Below are positions 8,494-36,881 of a stretch of 64,000 nt of DNA, in pieces. The stretch's first letter is position 1, and each line of letters opens with the position of its first letter. The notes under the pieces are model-generated. The model did not search any database. It had not been told where the DNA came from and saw nothing but the letters and a program-made list of their open reading frames with translations. Both the position numbers and the translations under genes were made by a program. Source of the stretch: Aurantiochytrium sp. KH105 (lineage: Eukaryota > Sar > Bigyra > Thraustochytrida > Thraustochytriidae); contig BGKB01000109.1 in the NCBI GenBank assembly GCA_003116975.1, forward strand, positions 124,001 through 188,000. The letters are read 5' to 3'.

Positions 8494-10164
8494 CTACTGA
8501 CGCCTGGTACTCGCATCAAAGGTATTTTCTGCATCAGAATCCGCCGAAGCCTGCGTTGCGTCGTCTTGATCTGCAGAATCTTCCACATCATCATCATCAT
8601 CATCAATATCGCTGCCAGGGCTATCAGCAGCCTTCTGCTTTCCAGAGACGGGCTCGTCGATTTTAACATGTACAGACTCGGTAGCGAGAGCAGACCCGAC
8701 CTCTGACTTCGCTTGAATGAACTCATGAGAGGTCTCACCAGATTCACTGTCAACGGGAAGAGCCACAGGTAGAATGACAAAGACCGGCGCCGCCGGATCA
8801 GGCTTGTAGTCATAGATTGCAGCAATGATCCGCCCAATGATCCAAGTAACCAAAGATGCGATGGGTCCGATGAAGAGAACAAGAATGAAAAGGCCAAGGA
8901 GCCAGGTTTGGAAAAGCCATCCTAGGTCCTGTACCGTCCAGTCTAAGATGATTGAAACAACGCAGAACGTTATCGCAAAGGCGAGCGTGAGGACACGAGT
9001 CACAATTTCTGAGACATAGCCAGCATCCGAAAGAGCTTGTCGCATAATGTTGGCAGACAGTTGAAACAAGAGGATTGAGAGCTCACTGAGGAAAAAATCT
9101 GGCCCGAAAAAGGAGAAAAAGTCGGGATTAAGCTCGTATCCTGCTGCTGCATCGTCTTTTCCGAATTGAGAGAGGAACGCGGGCCCGAATCGAGTTGTTG
9201 CCGTCGTGTCACCCTGGTCTGTGTCGACAAGGCCGTCGAAATAGCATGCGTACAACCCAACATGGGAAGGTTGAAAGAGGCAATTAACTCCAAAGGACAT
9301 GATGGTGACGGACAGGACATCCCAAAGTTTGGAAAGTTTGCTGCGACAGCTTTTGTTGCATGCACATGAATTGCAGCACATGTACTTGGAGTGACCCGTC
9401 TCATCAATGTAGCCCAGAAGGTAGAGAATGTATCGGAGACGCCAAGCACTAGTAGAGTGTGTACCGACGGTATTGCCAGGAACTTTGCGCGACTCGATGG
9501 ACCCATACTTGAAGACCTGATAGTCGACGACAGCGCTCACCATGAAGAAGAGGAGACTTATGATGTAGAGCGCGATCATTTGTGGTTTGTCGAAAGGAAC
9601 TTCGTTCTCGTCCGCAACACCTTCGAAGGCGGCAGTCGCCTCACAGCCGGCGCAGGCAAAGGAGCCATAGCGGGATTGATGTGAGTATATCCTTGCGTAC
9701 ATGAGCCAGCCGGCATCGGCGTCGATACAAAGCTGTTGCAACTCGGCGCAAGAGGGGGAGGCGGGCTCCTGGAACACTGAGAAATTCTTGCCATCCAAAT
9801 TAGGACACGCAGGGAGAGCAGAACTTGTAATGAATGTTTCGTTGGAATAGGCAAGCACGGTGTCTGGGCAATCGCTCGCAGGGCAAATGTAGCCGATGCC
9901 GCAGGAGCTGCATTGATATGGCCCACTTTGCGTCGCGCCGCTTGCGAGGACCGTCGCGCCGTCGCGTTGACCCCAGAGACGAAATGTACCAGTACACAAG
10001 GTCTTTGCCTGTTCTGCTGACTCTACCACCGGGCATTCGGGGGTGGGAAGAGAGCTTGCAACCCTTGGCTTTTCGTTGAACTCCCCGGCAGCGGCAGCGA
10101 CGGCGACAAGCATGCCGAGCAACGTAGCACGCGCTCCAAGCTGGGCCCATCGAAGTGCGCCCAT
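8494..10164 (-). CDS. Cysteine-rich multipass membrane protein, paralogue A (unrecognised family)
   Basis: A 556-residue protein from ATG 10164, chosen because it opens directly into a signal peptide (LGMLVAVAAAAG); the longer frame to 10377 adds Arg-rich sequence. The ectodomain (about 30-190) has paired cysteines, notably CSSCGIGYICPASDCPD, SCAELQQLC and CAGC, and N-glycosylation sequons. About five hydrophobic segments follow (about residues 195-450), beginning PQMIALYIISLLFFM and ending VLFIGPIASLVTWIIG. The C-terminal tail is cytosolic by inference, acidic, with a run of six Asp. It shares order, spacing and motifs (CSSCGIGY.CP, QVFKYGS, YACYFDG, GPxxSxVTW) with the gene just upstream, so the two are tandem duplicates. 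I do not recognise the family; a surface sensor or channel-like role is speculation. Confidence 0.88.
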   Translation of the reverse strand: MGALRWAQLGARATLLGMLVAVAAAAGEFNEKPRVASSLPTPECPVVESAEQAKTLCTGTFRLWGQRDGATVLASGATQSGPYQCSSCGIGYICPASDCPDTVLAYSNETFITSSALPACPNLDGKNFSVFQEPASPSCAELQQLCIDADAGWLMYARIYSHQSRYGSFACAGCEATAAFEGVADENEVPFDKPQMIALYIISLLFFMVSAVVDYQVFKYGSIESRKVPGNTVGTHSTSAWRLRYILYLLGYIDETGHSKYMCCNSCACNKSCRSKLSKLWDVLSVTIMSFGVNCLFQPSHVGLYACYFDGLVDTDQGDTTATTRFGPAFLSQFGKDDAAAGYELNPDFFSFFGPDFFLSELSILLFQLSANIMRQALSDAGYVSEIVTRVLTLAFAITFCVVSIILDWTVQDLGWLFQTWLLGLFILVLFIGPIASLVTWIIGRIIAAIYDYKPDPAAPVFVILPVALPVDSESGETSHEFIQAKSEVGSALATESVHVKIDEPVSGKQKAADSPGSDIDDDDDDVEDSADQDDATQASADSDAENTFDASTRRQ

Positions 10165-10680
10165 GTTGACTCCAAGGCGCAAGGACGAGCGGCGTTCGCC
10201 ACGCGCTCGCGAGATGGCGCCCGGGCGAGGGGTTAGGAGTTGACGGTGGCACGGGCGCGCGACCCCGCAAGGCCGGCGACGTCCGAGTCTGGAACGCGCG
10301 CTTGCGTTACGATTTATTTCGTCCATTACTTGCCTTGGCACGCGCTGGAATTCGTCTTCTTTTTGTTGTTGGCACATCAGCCACCAGTGAGCGAGAGAGG
10401 GGGCTCCTGCGACCTGTCACCTGTACTGTCTGCCCCTTATCAATGTCACAGGCCTCTTATCTATTCCCCAAAGCTGAGACGATTGTTCGCGTTTACGCGT
10501 GGCCAAAGGATGCAAGTCTTGAAGTGAGCAAGACGCCAGCCACATCTGGAGATGCACGAAATCAGCAACAAGAGACAGAGCAAACATGGTTTTTAGTTTT
10601 TTGGGTATTTTCTGCAAGAAGAACAACAAAAGGTAGGAAGAATAAGAGGCCTACTATTTCGGCAGGGAACTTCAAAGAAA
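10165..10680. other. Spacer between tandem paralogues
   Basis: 516 bp holding the promoter of paralogue A and the 3' end of paralogue B. Small plus-strand frames (10240-10829) have no protein character. No other feature seen. Confidence 0.45.
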
Positions 10681-12135
10681 TTAATTCCCGTCTTGGGAGG
10701 TTCGATCAGGTCTGGATCTGTAGTGCTGCACTTTTAGGGTGCCAGCTCGACGGTTCTCCTGCCTGTCGGCACGTGCCCAGGGTGAACAACCATAGACTTT
10801 TGAAATCAAGATACCGAGACACCACGTGACCACCGAGATGGCGGGGCCAACAAGGAGAAGGAGCAATGCAAAACTCACACTCCATGCGATGAGGAAGAGA
10901 ACCGCGTTTAAAGTCGACCACTCGTCGAAAACGCAAGCAATGCAAAAGACGATGGAAATGCTGAAAAGGACCTGTCGCATCCTCCACTCGGAGGTGAACC
11001 CAGAGTCAACAATGGCACGCCTGATCATTGCCGATATAAAAAAATAGAGCGCAACGATGAGCTGACCAAACATGAGCTCGAGATTCTCAAAGGATAATTG
11101 GACAGCAGGGATACCACCCTCAGATCGTGTGAGATCGCCAAAGTTGAGCGCGAAAGATGGTTGAAAAAGTTGCATTGCACTCGTGTCGGCGTTCGTTGCA
11201 TCACCGTATCCATCAAAATAGCAAGCGTACGAGATAAGAACGCCGCCTTTGAAGAGCCCAGTGACGCCCAGAGACACGACCGCGAGCGAAGCAAGGTCCC
11301 ACACTCTGTCAAACTCATTGTGAAAATCACAGCGTACTTTGTACATCACCTCGCAGAATGTGTGAGGTTTGCCATCTTCAGTCATGAAGCCGAGAATGCC
11401 GAGAATATAGCGCAGCCGCCACTTGTTGGTCGCTGTTTCAGAATAGGCTGCGGAAGATGTATTCAACTCGGGAACGCTGTCCCTGAGATAGCCTTTGGAT
11501 CCATATTTGAAGATGCGACAGTTGAGGAACATGCTCACGAGGAAGAAGACGCACATCATCATGTAGAGGATAACCATTTGGGGTTTACGGAGATGGGTAT
11601 AGCCATTCGAGGTACTGAGAACGCTGCCAGCATGGCAGCCCGCGCAGCTGTACGTGCCAAGCTCTGCGTCAAAGGATTCGGCAAACATCAGCCAGCCGTA
11701 ACCACTGCTTCTGCAAACATGTTGAAGGTTGGCGCAGCTGATCGTCAAAGAATCGCCCTCAACACTGGGACAAACGGGTGGTTTGCTTTCTTCATTGACA
11801 GTAACTTCGTCTGACGCCTGCACGTAAATAGAAGATGGGCATGAGCCATAAGGACAAAGGTAGCCAATGCCGCAGGAGCTGCAATAATAAGGCCCAGATT
11901 TGGTGGCGTTGTATTCTGTGGAAAAGTCAAAGAAGTTTTCACCGTTTTCATGCTCGCCCCAGAGCTGGAATGTTTCCGACGACGGGCAGCTCGCTTCCGC
12001 TGCAAGCTGGTTGGGGACAATCGGGCAATCGGCAGAGGGGAGCGAGACACTGGTAACTTTTGGTGCGTTTGCAAGAGTCCTTGTGACAAGGCTGGCTGTC
12101 ATCGCCGAGAGGAGAATCTGACGCGTCATCTTCAT
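10681..12135 (-). CDS. Cysteine-rich multipass membrane protein, paralogue B
   Basis: A 484-residue protein from ATG 12135 (a second ATG two codons on is equally usable), starting with a signal peptide (ILLSAMTASLVTRTLANA). The ectodomain repeats the cysteine pattern of paralogue A: CSSCGIGYLCPYGSCP, SCANLQHVC, CAGC. The hydrophobic segments also match (PQMVILYMMMCVFFLVSMFL, then spans ending LLVGPAISVVTWCLG), as do WRLRYIL and YACYFDG. It lacks the long acidic tail of paralogue A and ends in a short basic tail. Sequence divergence in the ectodomain is considerable while the membrane core is better kept, suggesting an old duplication with altered extracellular specificity (inference). Family unrecognised. 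Confidence 0.88.
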   Translation of the reverse strand: MKMTRQILLSAMTASLVTRTLANAPKVTSVSLPSADCPIVPNQLAAEASCPSSETFQLWGEHENGENFFDFSTEYNATKSGPYYCSSCGIGYLCPYGSCPSSIYVQASDEVTVNEESKPPVCPSVEGDSLTISCANLQHVCRSSGYGWLMFAESFDAELGTYSCAGCHAGSVLSTSNGYTHLRKPQMVILYMMMCVFFLVSMFLNCRIFKYGSKGYLRDSVPELNTSSAAYSETATNKWRLRYILGILGFMTEDGKPHTFCEVMYKVRCDFHNEFDRVWDLASLAVVSLGVTGLFKGGVLISYACYFDGYGDATNADTSAMQLFQPSFALNFGDLTRSEGGIPAVQLSFENLELMFGQLIVALYFFISAMIRRAIVDSGFTSEWRMRQVLFSISIVFCIACVFDEWSTLNAVLFLIAWSVSFALLLLLVGPAISVVTWCLGILISKVYGCSPWARADRQENRRAGTLKVQHYRSRPDRTSQDGN

Positions 12136-12970: not shown

Positions 12971-14515
12971 TCATAGAAAGCGACGGAGGTCCGCCAGAAT
13001 GGCGTCGATCGAAGGACGGCGGGCAGATTCGAAGGCGAGACAGGTATGCATGAGTTTTTCCAGGGGCCTAAACTCGCTCGGGGCAAAGTACCCTCGCGGC
13101 GGGAACTCGCGGTTGGTGACAATGTCTTCGATTTGCGCAAGGGTATAGTGTTTATAAAAGGGCTGTTCTCGGGAAAGCATTTCGTAAAGAATGCAGCCAA
13201 AGCTCCACGTATCGACTCGCTCGTCGTAAAGGTCGCCGCGGAACATTTCTGGACTACGGAATTGGGGCGATGTTACGCAGGTGCGCGTGCGGCGAAAGTT
13301 TCCTGTGTCGCCAGGGGCGCGCAAGCGCTTGGCCACCTCGAAGTTTGCTAGTTTTGCGGAGAATGTAAAGCCAGCGACATGAATGGCTGGGTCGAGAGAG
13401 GTCCAAGCGTTGGCGACGGGCATCTCCTCCCCCGATTGCGACTTGGAGCGCCACGTTGGCAGCGATGCCATGGCCCCGACAGCCGAGGCTGATTGTTTGT
13501 CGGACGCACTGGCACGGAACATGTTGCTGAGCGAGCGACTAAGACGGAAGTGCTTGCGCATGGCGGCGGTCCAGTTCCCGCTAGTTGGGTAGTCTGCGCA
13601 TGCCATCATGACGTTGTCAGATGTCAGGTCTCGGTGTACGATGCCCTGTTGCTGCAAGAAGAGCATGGCTTCAGCAATATCCATGGCGTACTTGCGAACC
13701 TCGAGGTAGGTGAGGCGTTCGTGGCCACTTGCGCGATGATAGACGAGGTCTGAGAGTGAGTCGACAGCGAACTCAAATGCAACTCGGCGTTCAAGAGTAT
13801 TATGAGGTACAACAACTTCTTGGTAGCCAAGAAAGCGAATGATGTTTGGATGGTCGAGGTCCTGCAGGATTTCGAGTTCGGTGTTGACTGTTTCGTTGTG
13901 ATCCGGAAGACAGGTGGGGGCACGACAGCGGAGAACTTTGGCGAGGACGATGCCGTGTTTATCATTGGCGGCTCTGTAAATACGTCTGCCATAAGTTCCG
14001 TTTTTCCCGATGTTGTCGAGGAGGTCGAGGTCGGTTGTGAGATGTCTGACTTTGGGAGGCAAGCGGACGGTCCCGATGTTTTCGTTCATGAAACTATTTG
14101 AGATGGCGAGCCTGCTTGTAGAAAGGGGTAGGATGACCGCGTCGTGAGCGATCTCGTCGTCGCCGACCGACATGATCTCCGAGTACGTGCTGACGGAGCT
14201 AACGTCGTGCCGTGCAGCGGGGGTGGACTTTCTGTTAGAGAAGACGGAGCGCACCGAATTTGCAGAGCTGGCAAGCACATGCTGTGAGAATCTCGCAGAG
14301 AACACAGGGCGGGATCTTGTGCTGAGCACGGGGCTGTTTGGCGTGAGGTCCTCGGCAGCCTGGGTTGCAGAAAGAAACATGTCAAGGTGCTTGCAGTGGC
14401 CATCTTTGCGGAAATCGCTGCATGAGCACGTTGGGCCGGCCCATTTTCTTCGCTGCTGGCACGCGGTGATGGCGTCCACGAAGGCGCGGCCCACGCCTGC
14501 CGCAGACCCGGTCAT
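12971..14515 (-). CDS. SWIM zinc finger fused to a TKL-like protein kinase with altered DFG
   Basis: A 514-residue protein from ATG 14515. Residues 30-43 (CSCSDFRKDGHCKH) fit the SWIM finger pattern CxCx(n)CxH closely, with the usual following hydrophobic helix. A Ser-rich linker leads to a protein kinase domain at about 165-510: glycine loop GKNGTYG, Lys in VLAKVLRC, HRDLTSDNV near 293 with catalytic Asp, TSPQFRSPEMF in place of APE, and DTWSFGCILYEML. The metal-binding DFG reads NFE (KLANFEVAKR, about 389), and roughly 95 residues separate HRD from it instead of about 20. Loss of that Asp usually marks a pseudokinase, although a few such kinases stay active. SWIM plus kinase recalls animal MEKK1 (MAP3K1). 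Signalling scaffold is the best guess. Confidence 0.85.
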   Translation of the reverse strand: MTGSAAGVGRAFVDAITACQQRRKWAGPTCSCSDFRKDGHCKHLDMFLSATQAAEDLTPNSPVLSTRSRPVFSARFSQHVLASSANSVRSVFSNRKSTPAARHDVSSVSTYSEIMSVGDDEIAHDAVILPLSTSRLAISNSFMNENIGTVRLPPKVRHLTTDLDLLDNIGKNGTYGRRIYRAANDKHGIVLAKVLRCRAPTCLPDHNETVNTELEILQDLDHPNIIRFLGYQEVVVPHNTLERRVAFEFAVDSLSDLVYHRASGHERLTYLEVRKYAMDIAEAMLFLQQQGIVHRDLTSDNVMMACADYPTSGNWTAAMRKHFRLSRSLSNMFRASASDKQSASAVGAMASLPTWRSKSQSGEEMPVANAWTSLDPAIHVAGFTFSAKLANFEVAKRLRAPGDTGNFRRTRTCVTSPQFRSPEMFRGDLYDERVDTWSFGCILYEMLSREQPFYKHYTLAQIEDIVTNREFPPRGYFAPSEFRPLEKLMHTCLAFESARRPSIDAILADLRRFL

Positions 14516-18746: not shown

Positions 18747-18875
<129 letters not shown>

Positions 18876-21800
18876 CTTGCCTCCTTGCTTCCGTTTCTCC
18901 TCTCTATTGTACTCCCAGGCGGGCCAGAACCGGCGAGTGAAGGCCGCAGGTGGTACCAGAATGGTGATGGTGACGGCATAGTAGCAAGCCAAAGAAAGTT
19001 TTGCATGCAGTGCGGTGGGCCCTGATTTTTTTCTTTTCCCATGTAGGCAAGGTATAGTATAGCCTAGAGGCTATTTTGGTAGAGGTGACTGCAGCATGGA
19101 AATTTGACCTTTTTCTTTCCTTTCTTCTTTCAAACATTTTTTCTTTTCTTTTTTTTTCTTTCTCTCCCTCCTTTCTTTCCTGGCTTCGTCGACGGCGCGA
19201 TCTTTGGACGACCGACCAATGGATTGTCTGGAGCTCGCTTGCCTATGAGCCCGCGTCGTTTCGTTCGCAGGTACGCAGAAATGTCGCTCTCCTGTGCTTT
19301 GCGTTGCTCTGGTTTGCGTTTCGTGGGGCGAGAGGGGTGGTCGTAATGAAAGGCAACGAGAAATGGAAGTTTTCAGATTTTCTTGTTTCTTTCTTTATTT
19401 CTTCCTTTATTTCTTTCTCTGATCCATAAAAAAACCTGCCTCTAGTAGTAGGCGCGTAGCTGCCAGCTGGCTGATGGAAAAGGCCAATCTGGCAGCACCA
19501 AGTGAGTCAATCCACGCCAAGCCAAGCAAGCCACCACCGATTTTTCCTTCGTTGATTCTCCCTCCTTTGATCCCTCCCCCCTTCCTGCTTCGATCCTTCC
19601 TTCGAACTCTGCAAGACTACTACCCGCTGCCGCTCGCTCAAGTTCGGCAGTGCTTAGCCTTTGCATTCTTCAGGCTGCCGCTGCCGCTTGCTTGTCTGGC
19701 AGGCGAGCCATTCGTGAGCACACGGCGTGCGCTGAGACGTGATGTGACGAGGGCCCACCCTTTTCTTTTGCATCCGACTCGCGCGCCGGATCAATTGATT
19801 GATGTGAGGGCGCCGAATGCAATGCGATGCAATACAATGCAATGCTTGGCATGGCGAGTGGTTCAGGCGGGGTCGGCCCATATCGTTCACTTGTTTTCAC
19901 GGTTCGCTGCTGTGGCGCTGCACGGGCGGGCGAACCGTGCCGCCGCGGCCAGCTGCAGAGGGCGCCGAGGATGGATGGGTCCGGGTCACCCGCCGCGCAC
20001 GCCGTGGCTTGACGTCGAATCATCGATCCTCGCAGCAGCCAGCAGCTAGCCAGCTGCTGCTGCAGCTGCTGCTACCTCCGAGACTCTCGGGTCCTCTCCG
20101 AGTCGAGACTCTCGGCTCCAGCAGCAGCAGCAGCAGCAGCAGCTTGCTTGGGTCCGCTGGTCGGGACCTGATCTTCAGCTGCAGGGCGAAATAGATCTTA
20201 GCGCAGCTCTGCTGCAGGCTGACTGGTGATTGATCCACGGCCGAGCGCGCCAAGTCAAGTCAGCCCGGCTGCTCGATTGATCTTCGCTCGTGCAGGCTGT
20301 CGACCTCGAGCTCGTCCGACGCGACCCGACGCGGCCCGACGCAGCCCCGACGCGGCCCGCGCAAGCGCAAGCTTGAGCCCGCGCTCGTGCGCGCGCGGGC
20401 CGGCCCGGCAAGGCGCACACGCGGTGCACGAGGCGAGACGAGACAAGAAGACGAGGCGAGACGGAGCACACACGCACGCACACGCAGAGGAATGGAAACC
20501 AGAGCCCTCCGCGCGGCCGCTTGAGGGGATTGGAGAAGCAAGGAGGCGCTGAAGCCGCGCGGGAGTCAGAGGCGGCGGCTACAAGGCGCGACCCCCCGGC
20601 CCGAGAAGGCTGCCTTCGCAGGCCTGCGCGGGGTTCGCAGGCACGCGTAGCTTGGTTGGTGGGAACGGAAATCTTCAACCAATCTTGAGCGCGCGCCAAA
20701 GGCGCACGGATAAATGATCAAACGAACGAATGAATGCACGAGTGCCCGTGCATGAACCAGGAAATAAATGCCCGTGCCGCCAGGTAGCCAGCCAGAGCCG
20801 GCTGGAGCGGTAGGCAGGTAGGCTGGCAGACACCCTGGCGGACGAGAGCCAGGCTCGGCGGCACGAGACCGAGCGGGCCGCGGCCCGCGGTAGCAATGAA
20901 GAAGGAGAGAAAGGAAGGCAGGAAGGAAGGAAAACACGGACAACGCTTGGACGAGGCGCGCGCTGCGCTCTTCCGCGACTTCGATCCTCCAACCATGCGC
21001 GACCGGGAAGAAAAAAGAAATGCTCTGAAAAGAAGAAAAGAAGAAAAGAAGAAAAAAGAATGATAAAATATGGAAGAACAAAAAGTGAAAGAGAGTTTCT
21101 TTCTCTGCCAGCCAGCTCACAGTGTGGGGATATTCCGGAAGCAAAGGAAACGGAAAAGAAAAAAAAACGCCTTGGACAACGTAACAAAAGGTCACAGACA
21201 TAGTTGTGGGATGGGTTCCGTCTATCCCGCACATGAAAGCTAGCAGCTTGTATGAAGCTGTGGGTTCAATCTCGGGTCTCAACAGCCTGCACGCCTGCCT
21301 GTTCTGGCTGCAGCACGATTGCGCAGTGCGACGCCGGATCCATTCCAAGCGACGGAGGCGCGGAGCGTTAATGTGAAAGGGCAACGATCCGGCTTGCCTA
21401 TTTTGTCTACCTTTCTGGCCAGTTGAGTCCGCGCGCGCCCCAAAGAAAAAAAAGTTGGACGATGCGGCAGCTGCCAACTGCTGCGGCGTGGCGCGCGCGG
21501 AGAGTGGGTGAACACAAAAGACAAAATGTATGCGTTGTATGTAACCTACCACTCGTCCCGCGCCTCATCTTCATCGTCAACAGCCACATGCCAGCAGCAG
21601 CCAGTCAGGAGAAGCAAGCGAATGCGAAGCCTAAATTTTTCAACAGCCAGAGCGACGAGGCAGCTCGTTCACCAGGCTCATGAGGCGGCAAGGCGACCAA
21701 GAGAGGGCAGGTACTGGAGGGCCTGCGCTAGCGCCGAAGGCAAGCAGCGTCCAGGCCGCTTCGCGAAGAAAACTCGTTTGGCGGCACGGGACGGGCCAGC

Positions 21801-34645: not shown

Positions 34646-36175
34646 TCATTTGTCGACGCCGTATTCCTTGCGGTAGGCCTCGACGGCGGTCAGCACGCTG
34701 TCGTCAAAAGTAGTTCCTGAAGAGCGGAGAAAAGCCAAAAGGTCGTCAAGGCAGACAATCGAGTGCACGTCAAAGCCAAACTCCTTCTTGACTGCCTGAA
34801 TGGCGCTGAGCGAACCCTCCTTGGCGCGCTCCTGGCGATCGAGCGCGATAACGACGCCAATGATGCTGGCGTCTTCCACGGAGAGCATCTCAATGCACTC
34901 GCGCACGGCAGTACCGGCCGTGATGACATCATCAACGACGAGAACGCGCTTTCCCCGCACAGGAGCACCAACCAAGAGACCGCCCTCGCCATGGTCCTTC
35001 TTCTCCTTGCGGTTGTAGGCCACCGGAGTGTCCTTGCCGTACTTGCGGTACAGCGCCGTGGCAATCACGCTGGCGAGCGGGATACCCTTGTACGCGGGAC
35101 CAAAAAGAACATCAAACTCGACCTTGGAGCGCATGATCGCCTCAGCATAGAACTCGCCCAGACCGTCGAGGGCAGATCCGCTGTTAAAGAGACCAGCATT
35201 GAAAAAGTACGGGCTCTCGCGGCCCGACTTGAGGGTGAACTTGCCAAACTTGAGCACCTCGCAGCGCAGCGCAAGCTCGAAAAACTGCTTCTGGAACGGC
35301 TCGAGTGCTTCCTCGGCACCCTCTGTCTTGGCGCGCTTCGCCGCAGGCTCGGCGTCTTCGGCGGCCTTGCGCACACCGTTGAGCAGATCACGAAACTTTT
35401 CTGCGGCCGCCTTCGGGTCCTCCGCGCGGGCAATACCCCGGGAGACAGGAACCAACAGGCCCATGCCGTCCGCGCGCAGGCCGGCCTTGGCGGCAGCCTC
35501 GAGATCGCCGCCCTGGAAACCGACGCCAGGCGCCAGAATCCACAGCGAGGGAGCCGCCGCGCGGGACTTGGCAAGGGCCTCCACGTCCGTGGCGCCCACC
35601 ACGAGGCCAACGTTGTCCTTGGCGTTCCACTTTTCGCACAACTTGGCCACGCGCTCGTACAGGAGGCCGCCCTCAGTGAGCGCGACGGTCTCGAGGTCCT
35701 CCGAGCTCGGGTTCGACGTCTTACAGAGCACAAAAGCTCCCCGCGTTTCGTCCTCGCCGACGAAGGGCGCAATGGAGTCCTCGCCCATGTACGGACTCAG
35801 GGTCACGCAGTGCGCCTTGTAGGCGTCATAGGCGGCCGTCGCGTACGCCTTGGCCGTGCTGGAAATGTCGCCGCGCTTGACATCAAGGACGACGGGAATC
35901 TCGGCCGGCACCGCAGCCACGACGCGCTGCAGCGCCTCGACGCCCTCGGCGCCAAAGGCCTCGAAAAACGCCGCGTTCGGCTTGTACGCGGCGGCCACGT
36001 GCTGGGTGGCCTCGATGAGCGCCTTGGAGAACTCAAAAGCGGCCTCGGCGTCGCTCTCGATGCCCTTGTCCTTCTTCACCTTGGCCACATCCTCCGCGTG
36101 CGGGTCCAGGCCCACGCAGACCAGCGAGTCGGCGGCCTTGACGCGCGCCTCCAGCGTCGCGAAGAAGCTCGGCAT
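34646..36175 (-). CDS. UMPS: Bifunctional UMP synthase, inverted fusion: OMP decarboxylase then orotate phosphoribosyltransferase
   Basis: A 509-residue protein from ATG 36175; the frame is open to 37111 but that part is Arg/Ala/Pro-rich and overlaps the divergent neighbour. Residues about 1-270 are OMP decarboxylase, with VCVGLDPH, the catalytic LDVKRGDISSTAKAYA (about 93-108) and LAPGVGFQGGD. A linker holds basic AAKRAKTEG (about 277-285). Residues about 295-509 are orotate phosphoribosyltransferase, with FTLKSGRESPYFFNAG, GPAYKGIPL, AYNRKEKKDHGEGG and the PRPP loop VLVVDDVITAGTAV (about 408). It performs the last two steps of de novo UMP synthesis. Animals and plants have the transferase first; this inverted order is known from stramenopiles, kinetoplastids and cyanobacteria. 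The C-terminus GVDK is not a peroxisomal SKL-type signal. Confidence 0.95.
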   Translation of the reverse strand: MPSFFATLEARVKAADSLVCVGLDPHAEDVAKVKKDKGIESDAEAAFEFSKALIEATQHVAAAYKPNAAFFEAFGAEGVEALQRVVAAVPAEIPVVLDVKRGDISSTAKAYATAAYDAYKAHCVTLSPYMGEDSIAPFVGEDETRGAFVLCKTSNPSSEDLETVALTEGGLLYERVAKLCEKWNAKDNVGLVVGATDVEALAKSRAAAPSLWILAPGVGFQGGDLEAAAKAGLRADGMGLLVPVSRGIARAEDPKAAAEKFRDLLNGVRKAAEDAEPAAKRAKTEGAEEALEPFQKQFFELALRCEVLKFGKFTLKSGRESPYFFNAGLFNSGSALDGLGEFYAEAIMRSKVEFDVLFGPAYKGIPLASVIATALYRKYGKDTPVAYNRKEKKDHGEGGLLVGAPVRGKRVLVVDDVITAGTAVRECIEMLSVEDASIIGVVIALDRQERAKEGSLSAIQAVKKEFGFDVHSIVCLDDLLAFLRSSGTTFDDSVLTAVEAYRKEYGVDK

Positions 36176-36881
36176 CCTGCCCGCGTCGGCGGCCTCGTCC
36201 TCCACCTCGTGCGCGCCCTGCTCGCTGCAAGCGAGCGCAGCCACCCACCGCCCGCGAGCGCCCTCGGCCCGCGATCCAGCGCTCCCGCGCGGCGCCAAGC
36301 TCGCCCGCTCCCGCGCTCCCGCGCTCAAGCGCTCACGCGCGGCCGCCGCGTCGCGTGCGTCGCGTCGAGCTCGCCGCGGGCTCCGTCGCGGTCGTGCGGG
36401 CGTCGGGGTTGGCGGTCTGCTCTGCCGCGCTGCCTCTGCATTCAGTCGCTCAACCATCGTCTCAATCGGTCTCATCTCATCTCGATATCTGCTCAAGGAT
36501 CCAAGGATCGGCGTCTCCGCCCGGCTCGAGGCCGCCGCAGAACCTGATACGGCGCCCGGGCCCGCGGCGGCAGCGCAGCGCGGCGCGGCGCGGCCAGGGC
36601 GGGGCAGGCCAGGGCGGGCAGCGGGCGCGCGGGCGGGCGGGCGTCTGTCTCTCTCGCCGTGCCGGCGCCGAGGCGAGGCGTGGATTCGCACCATCGCATC
36701 CCGCGCGCGCGTCGGCGACCACGCGTTGAACTGGCGCAGGGCGCGCGCGGGCGACGTGCGCGCGCGGCGCTCGGGCGCGGGCGCGCGGGAGGAGCTCGCT
36801 CGTTGCGTGGACGCGCGTGTTCCTGGACACGGCCGCTGCGTCGCACCGCGCTGCGTGAGGCGGCGCTGCGCGTCGTGGGCG
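36176..36881. promoter_or_regulatory. Bidirectional promoter region UMPS / DHTKD1-like
   Basis: About 700 bp between divergent ATGs at 36175 and 36882, very GC-rich with GGGCGGGC- and GCGCGC-type motifs near 36600-36790. Long frames run through on both strands from the two flanking genes, but their composition (Arg/Ala/Pro) argues against coding. Confidence 0.5.

Follow-up and report, generated by a model that had tools for sequence, protein, structure and literature searches.

What does a protein do that joins a putative metal-binding finger to a kinase domain whose DFG motif reads NFE? The question is raised by a frame on the minus strand of the window, the 64,000-nucleotide stretch of DNA analyzed here. 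We propose, with a probability of roughly 0.55, that the encoded 514-residue protein is a pseudokinase scaffold of impaired catalysis that carries a minimal SWIM-like finger. A real finger would show that a motif of MEKK1 can be combined with a kinase fold that works without catalysis; otherwise, the protein is one more lineage-specific pseudokinase. Among the papers listed by literature searches, judged by their titles and the starts of abstracts, none reported SWIM paired with a pseudokinase, and SWIM was named together with a kinase for MEKK-type MAP3Ks alone. Likewise, the paper on the Phytophthora infestans kinome (PMC3019232) does not list SWIM plus kinase in its table of accessory domains. 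According to the same paper, 32 kinases of P. infestans are predicted to be inactive, 19 of them belonging to the TKL group.

Table 1. Features of the 514-residue protein and its gene, in window coordinates
Feature	Position	Strand	Basis
ORF, 514 residues plus stop: SWIM-like finger, disordered linker (predicted) and kinase domain without the DFG aspartate	12971..14515	-	Frame reading; second copy
SWIM-like core C30-x-C32-x8-C41-x-H43 (CSCSDFRKDGHCKH)	14387..14428	-	Pfam SWIM 10.6 bits, cut-off 19.6; identical in both copies
Linker, residues 57-160, Ser-rich (20/104), disorder predicted over 57-148	14036..14347	-	AlphaFold pLDDT <50 at 57-148; composition
Protein kinase domain, residues 161-514	12974..14035	-	
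ATP-binding lysine K193, retained	13937..13939	-	Column of alignment A1
Alpha-C glutamate E213, retained and invariant in A1	13877..13879	-	Alignment A1
Catalytic loop HRDLTSDN, retaining Asp and Asn, with Thr instead of the usual Lys at position 298	13613..13636	-	Alignment A1
Insert between HRD and NFE, residues 307-384, mostly disordered (predicted)	13364..13597	-	pLDDT <50 at 316-318 and 320-381
NFE replacing DFG, residues 391-393	13337..13345	-	Same in second copy
SPE motif (421-423) to aspartate D435, both retained	13211..13255	-	Alignment

The kinase domain and its catalytic residues

The protein is encoded by a single ATG-to-stop frame of 514 codons, uninterrupted as a sequence-only reading had described it, and the nearest in-frame stop lies 26 codons upstream of the ATG. 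A Pfam scan revealed a Pkinase domain (E 2.6e-31) overlapping with PK_Tyr_Ser-Thr (E 8.8e-27), in addition to two further weak kinase-like families (E 0.11). The structure predicted by AlphaFold adopts a bilobal kinase fold, with ten-residue mean pLDDT values of 63-97 over residues 161-310 and 381-514. Judged by both the profile and the predicted fold, this is a genuine protein kinase domain of the eukaryotic type.

The sequence-only reading also stated that HRD and the ATP lysine are kept and that DFG reads NFE, and the alignment bears it out, with HRD at residue 294 and both D296 and N301 in place. By contrast, both the aspartate and the glycine of DFG are altered. Column 298 of alignment A1 holds lysine in 31 of 34 rows, threonine in two and glutamine in one; the two threonines belong to the two copies of the 514-residue protein, and the glutamine to a second kinase-like frame, L073. 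A pseudokinase lacks at least one of the VAIK lysine, the HRD aspartate and the DFG aspartate, and here the last of these is Asn391. The DFG aspartate is the residue that holds the ATP-associated magnesium, as described in PMC8141879. The proposed alteration of the metal-binding site is upheld, as this aspartate is replaced in both copies of a gene under purifying selection. The further proposal, loss of catalysis, holds in so far as impaired catalysis is the likeliest outcome of that replacement.

Alternatively, the protein might be an active kinase with unusual metal use, in which phosphate is transferred slowly, either with the help of N391 and other residues or without any metal. We regard this as a tentative alternative. 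It has to accommodate changes in the D and G of DFG and in the catalytic-loop lysine, and the change from aspartate to asparagine at DFG is a standard kinase-killing one. On the other hand, the ATP lysine, the alpha-C glutamate, the HRD aspartate and the catalytic asparagine are all kept, which counts against a pseudokinase scaffold, and the kinase domain is under strong purifying selection. There is also a precedent in CASK (GFG), which is reported to transfer phosphate without metal (PMC4718504); unlike the 514-residue protein, however, CASK is a MAGUK protein whose metal-independent activity is described there as shown.

The SWIM-like finger

The metal ligands of the SWIM family (PF04434), CxCxnCxH, are present in the N-terminal region as C30, C32, C41 and H43, with n = 8. 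In a scan of residues 1-80 alone, SWIM was the sole Pfam family found (10.6 bits, E 0.42, model positions 13-29 of 38), a score short of the curated cut-off of 19.6 bits. The scan of the whole protein gave no SWIM match, and the protein was absent from the nine candidates of the genome-wide SWIM search. Of the near-consensus SWIM finger previously claimed for this frame, the four-ligand core thus stands, whereas the family assignment is less certain. To compare the finger, we chose L067 as a known SWIM of the same genome; the two cores are identical at 10 of 17 residues, with an E of 1e-5 for that single comparison. As a yardstick, a comparable scan gave the L067 SWIM 17.6 bits, also below the cut-off, and the genome search gave it 22.1 bits.

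The question is whether such a cluster could arise by chance in a pseudokinase or kinase that has no SWIM finger, a reading we consider possible although the less probable one. A loose pattern, CxCx6-25CxH, proves little by itself, because it occurs six times in the 293 ORFs of the window, compared to 1.09 in shuffles; it arises in 0.28% of shuffles of the 514-residue protein. In 150,845 residues, chance look-alikes of C-x-C...C-[KRN]-H turned up in antisense frames of the loci L018/L019 and L060/L062, and a six-row SWIM alignment is invariant only at C, S, C, C and H. In addition, a search of residues 1-80 against the PDB returned no match (one hit, E 2.3). The predicted models are divided: a beta hairpin before CxC appears only when SWIM rows are supplied (mean pLDDT 51), and the full-length model has a helix at residues 5-23 (low confidence); nevertheless, a helix directly follows CxH in both models (42-56 or 42-57). 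The structure search, whose rows span residues 154-514, is mute on the finger.

Several observations speak against chance. A stricter Cys/His pattern, although written after the sequence had been seen, has one occurrence in the window, where 0.03 would be expected. In a search of 67 kinase frames, a number that counts both copies as well as repeat or overlapping loci, CxCx6-25CxH is found only in the gene of the 514-residue protein. Moreover, the SWIM of L067, with which the core shares its 10 of 17 residues, falls below the cut-off in the same scan although it matches that of MEKK1. On these comparisons of sequence, the motif is probably a minimal SWIM-like finger rather than a proven member of the SWIM family.

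The second copy, the linker and the insert

A second copy of the gene is located at G000:C205:100190-101731. The assembly around the window comprises 76 Mb in 367 contigs, and its kinase matches are often paired across contigs with equal or near-equal scores; we therefore take it to be probably diploid with both haplotypes kept, the C205 gene being the other haplotype. The two copies differ at 35 of 1542 bases without any indel and are 99% identical, with 28 silent and seven replacement changes (pS 0.077, pN 0.006, both uncorrected). A neutral split of silent and replacement changes is excluded (P 3e-12), and the gene is under purifying selection. The 1.5-kb flanks show 79 differences over 1469 aligned bases on one side and 119 over 1401 on the other, with 62 and 192 gap columns, respectively. 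The finger, HRD, T298 and NFE are identical in both copies.

The selection is not uniform along the protein. Residues 161-306 carry 13 silent changes and one replacement (P 5e-8), and residues 385-514 carry nine and one (P 1.7e-5). Residues 1-160, in contrast, have two silent and four replacement changes (P 0.45; Fisher test against the rest, P 0.009). These are only six differences, compared to about 26 predicted from the less diverged flank, which argues that this region is also under some form of constraint.

The insert between HRD and NFE amounts to about 78 residues, close to the figure of about 70 given earlier, and no Pfam family matched residues 301-390 around it. It differs between the copies by four silent changes and one replacement, and this excess of silent changes (P 0.013 for coding constraint) argues against reading it as an intron. 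An unusual motif and an insert within a kinase domain might suggest sequence error, an intron mistaken for coding sequence or decay into a pseudogene. These explanations are largely refuted: the insert too favors silent changes, and error and decay fail to account for an NFE and a finger that recur in an indel-free copy under purifying selection.

Relatives of the protein were confirmed neither in viral contigs nor in prokaryote genomes (6 + 4 peptide-pattern stretches, of which 0 passed tblastn), in scans that reach close relatives only and may leave out records very near the genome of the window.

Kinase group and the relation to MEKK1

Sequence search of the whole protein against the PDB gave an unspecific set, with PknB, NEK7, MARK4, CDK2, Aurora A and LIMK2 among the best 60 of 2073 matches. 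For the N-lobe alone, the best 60 of 521 include CDK2, ACK1 and STK10, whereas for the C-lobe the best 60 of 936 are headed by PknB, followed by MLKL, NEK7, TAK1 and LRRK1. The match to MLKL, second only to PknB among these 60, covers residues 3-131 of the 132-residue query with an E of 2.3e-9. The matches of the predicted structure and most of the sequence matches are active kinases.

A tree was built with 52 further kinase domains; it contains no MAP3K1 kinase sequence, and its group names are labels that we presume from motifs. The protein stands alone in it on a long branch (1.6), and none of its neighbors is well supported; its highest identity to any of these domains is 28%. It falls on the TKL side with a support of 88/66, below the starred level. 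Topology tests did not reject placement on the STE, NEK or WNK sides (p-AU 0.12, 0.063 and 0.28) and weakly rejected the CDK side (0.037) and the CAMK/AGC side (0.014), values that serve only as a guide, as the tested groups were named after a quick tree had been seen.

The sequence-only reading had compared the frame with animal MEKK1 (MAP3K1), and a link between the two is not supported. MEKK1 resembles the 514-residue protein in having a SWIM-like finger and a kinase domain on one chain, and its SWIM finger is reportedly a receptor for the substrate c-Jun. RING and TOG domains are further parts of MEKK1, as described in PMC13072407. In MAP3K1, SWIM is followed by RING on the same chain, whereas the 514-residue frame has the SWIM core only and no RING family at E up to 10. 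The SWIM-RING combination lies instead on L067 (G000:C3:272443-272538 with flanks; second copy L069, C19:252746-252841), which matches the PDB entry 9p40, 'MEKK1 SWIM and RING Domains', over two stretches with an E of 6e-14. L067 and L069 share the CxCx8CxH spacing with the 514-residue protein; unlike it, they have a longer SWIM match and a RING, and Pfam found no kinase family in the 424-residue frame of L067. The MEKK1-type SWIM-RING module thus exists here apart from the kinase frame.

A MAP3K1 origin therefore has no support, and a diverged MAP3K1 orthologue that lost its RING is the least probable of the readings: the SWIM-like core and kinase in one frame, the presence of MAP3K2 and TAK1 (MAP3K7) among the best 60 of 936 C-lobe matches and the p-AU of 0.12 for the STE side are outweighed by the separate SWIM-RING protein, by PknB and MLKL outranking any MAP3K for the C-lobe within those 60, and by the lack of any MAP3K in the best 60 of 2073 (whole protein) or of 521 (N-lobe). 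A bolder idea divides the MEKK1 scheme between two proteins in this lineage: L067 would be a SWIM-RING ubiquitin ligase, and a separate pseudokinase with the same type of finger, from a conserved stramenopile family of SWIM-pseudokinases, would be its regulated adaptor or substrate receptor. This seems quite improbable.

NFE in other kinases of the genome

The DFG aspartate is kept in 34 of 36 kinase rows, the exceptions being the 514-residue protein and L073, and in all 20 rows of a second set chosen with the PK_Tyr_Ser-Thr model. In the first set, rows with identical motifs were dropped, and the two sets may overlap; because the rows were picked from the best-scoring hits, the selection favors intact kinases and under-counts losses. 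A DNA pattern for K-x-A-[NSDG]-F-E occurs at 27 places across the genome, compared to three for the reversed pattern. Two of the 27 are the present gene and its second copy, 17 were read, and the other eight resemble allele partners by their matched letters. NFE was considered as a mark of one kinase family in this genome, an idea set aside with one kinase among the 17 places read and a separate origin for it.

That one kinase is L073 (G000:C6:188580-189230), a kinase-like frame in which NFE replaces DFG and CGD replaces HRD. In a tree it pairs with L099, a DFG kinase (SH-aLRT 99), and a grouping with the 514-residue protein is rejected (p-AU 2.4e-5). NFE thus has at least two origins and is convergent in the two proteins, and L073 is probably a second, independent pseudokinase.

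A proposed scaffold and its known counterparts

We propose that the kinase fold of the 514-residue protein is intact and may still bind nucleotide, perhaps weakly, with the Gly loop, K193 and E213 kept. Phosphate transfer would be absent or very weak, owing to the loss of the DFG aspartate, the DFG glycine and the catalytic-loop lysine. Acting as a reduced SWIM finger, the CxCx8CxH core would probably coordinate one zinc and could hold a partner protein or a nucleic acid, in keeping with a scaffold role. The Ser-rich linker and the insert beside the active site may take phosphate from other kinases, and such phosphorylation might shift the domain between partner-bound states. Counting against this proposal, besides the retained catalytic residues, are the SWIM score below the cut-off, the four replacement versus two silent changes in residues 1-160 and the prevalence of active kinases among the matches.

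Kinase folds without the DFG aspartate serve as switches or scaffolds. One such pseudokinase, MLKL, has the motif GFE and is reported to bind ATP without metal (PMC5104457, PMC8141879). It resembles the 514-residue protein in the change from DFG to xFE (GFE in MLKL, NFE here) and in the C-lobe match. They differ in the catalytic loop, which is HGK in MLKL and HRD here, and at the N terminus, where MLKL carries a four-helix bundle, unlike the 514-residue protein with its SWIM-like core and a linker predicted to be disordered; in the low-confidence model of the latter, helices at 5-23 and 42-56 are followed by disorder over 57-148. Titin kinase has also lost the DFG aspartate and is described as an inactive scaffold that recruits a ubiquitin ligase (PMC4042850). 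According to the same source, however, it has EFG rather than NFE and an odd VAIK residue. Titin kinase also differs in being part of a giant muscle protein. MLKL, titin kinase, CASK as a warning case and the SWIM finger of MEKK1, put together, make a scaffold with a partner-binding finger the best reading.

Other observations in the genome and the window

Another unusual kinase frame, L010 (G000:C60:223684-227346, plus frame; second copy L017 on C1), contains a kinase that has HRN, DFA and, after HRN, an insert. Beyond the kinase, a Pfam scan of L010 found cyclin N and C domains; an F-box-like stretch ahead of the kinase was seen by eye only. The insert of L010/L017 lies at the same site as that of the 514-residue protein, and a common insert was considered and discarded, as the two did not look alike. 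Kinase-cyclin fusions are reported from Phytophthora in PMC3019232.

Within the window, the frame at 34646-36694 (minus strand) encodes an OMP decarboxylase domain ahead of a phosphoribosyltransferase domain, a UMP synthase in inverted order; the inverted fusion is known from stramenopiles. Together with the kinase-cyclin fusion, it makes a stramenopile source plausible without proving it. The adjacent frames at 8494-10377 and 10681-12135 (both minus strand) look alike by eye, are of membrane type with cysteine-rich N-terminal halves, gave no Pfam match at E 0.001, and are perhaps a tandem duplication. A long simple-sequence repeat at about 18750-18920 would be translated, in several overlapping frames, into runs of Phe/Leu/Ser on one strand and of Lys/Glu/Arg on the opposite one.
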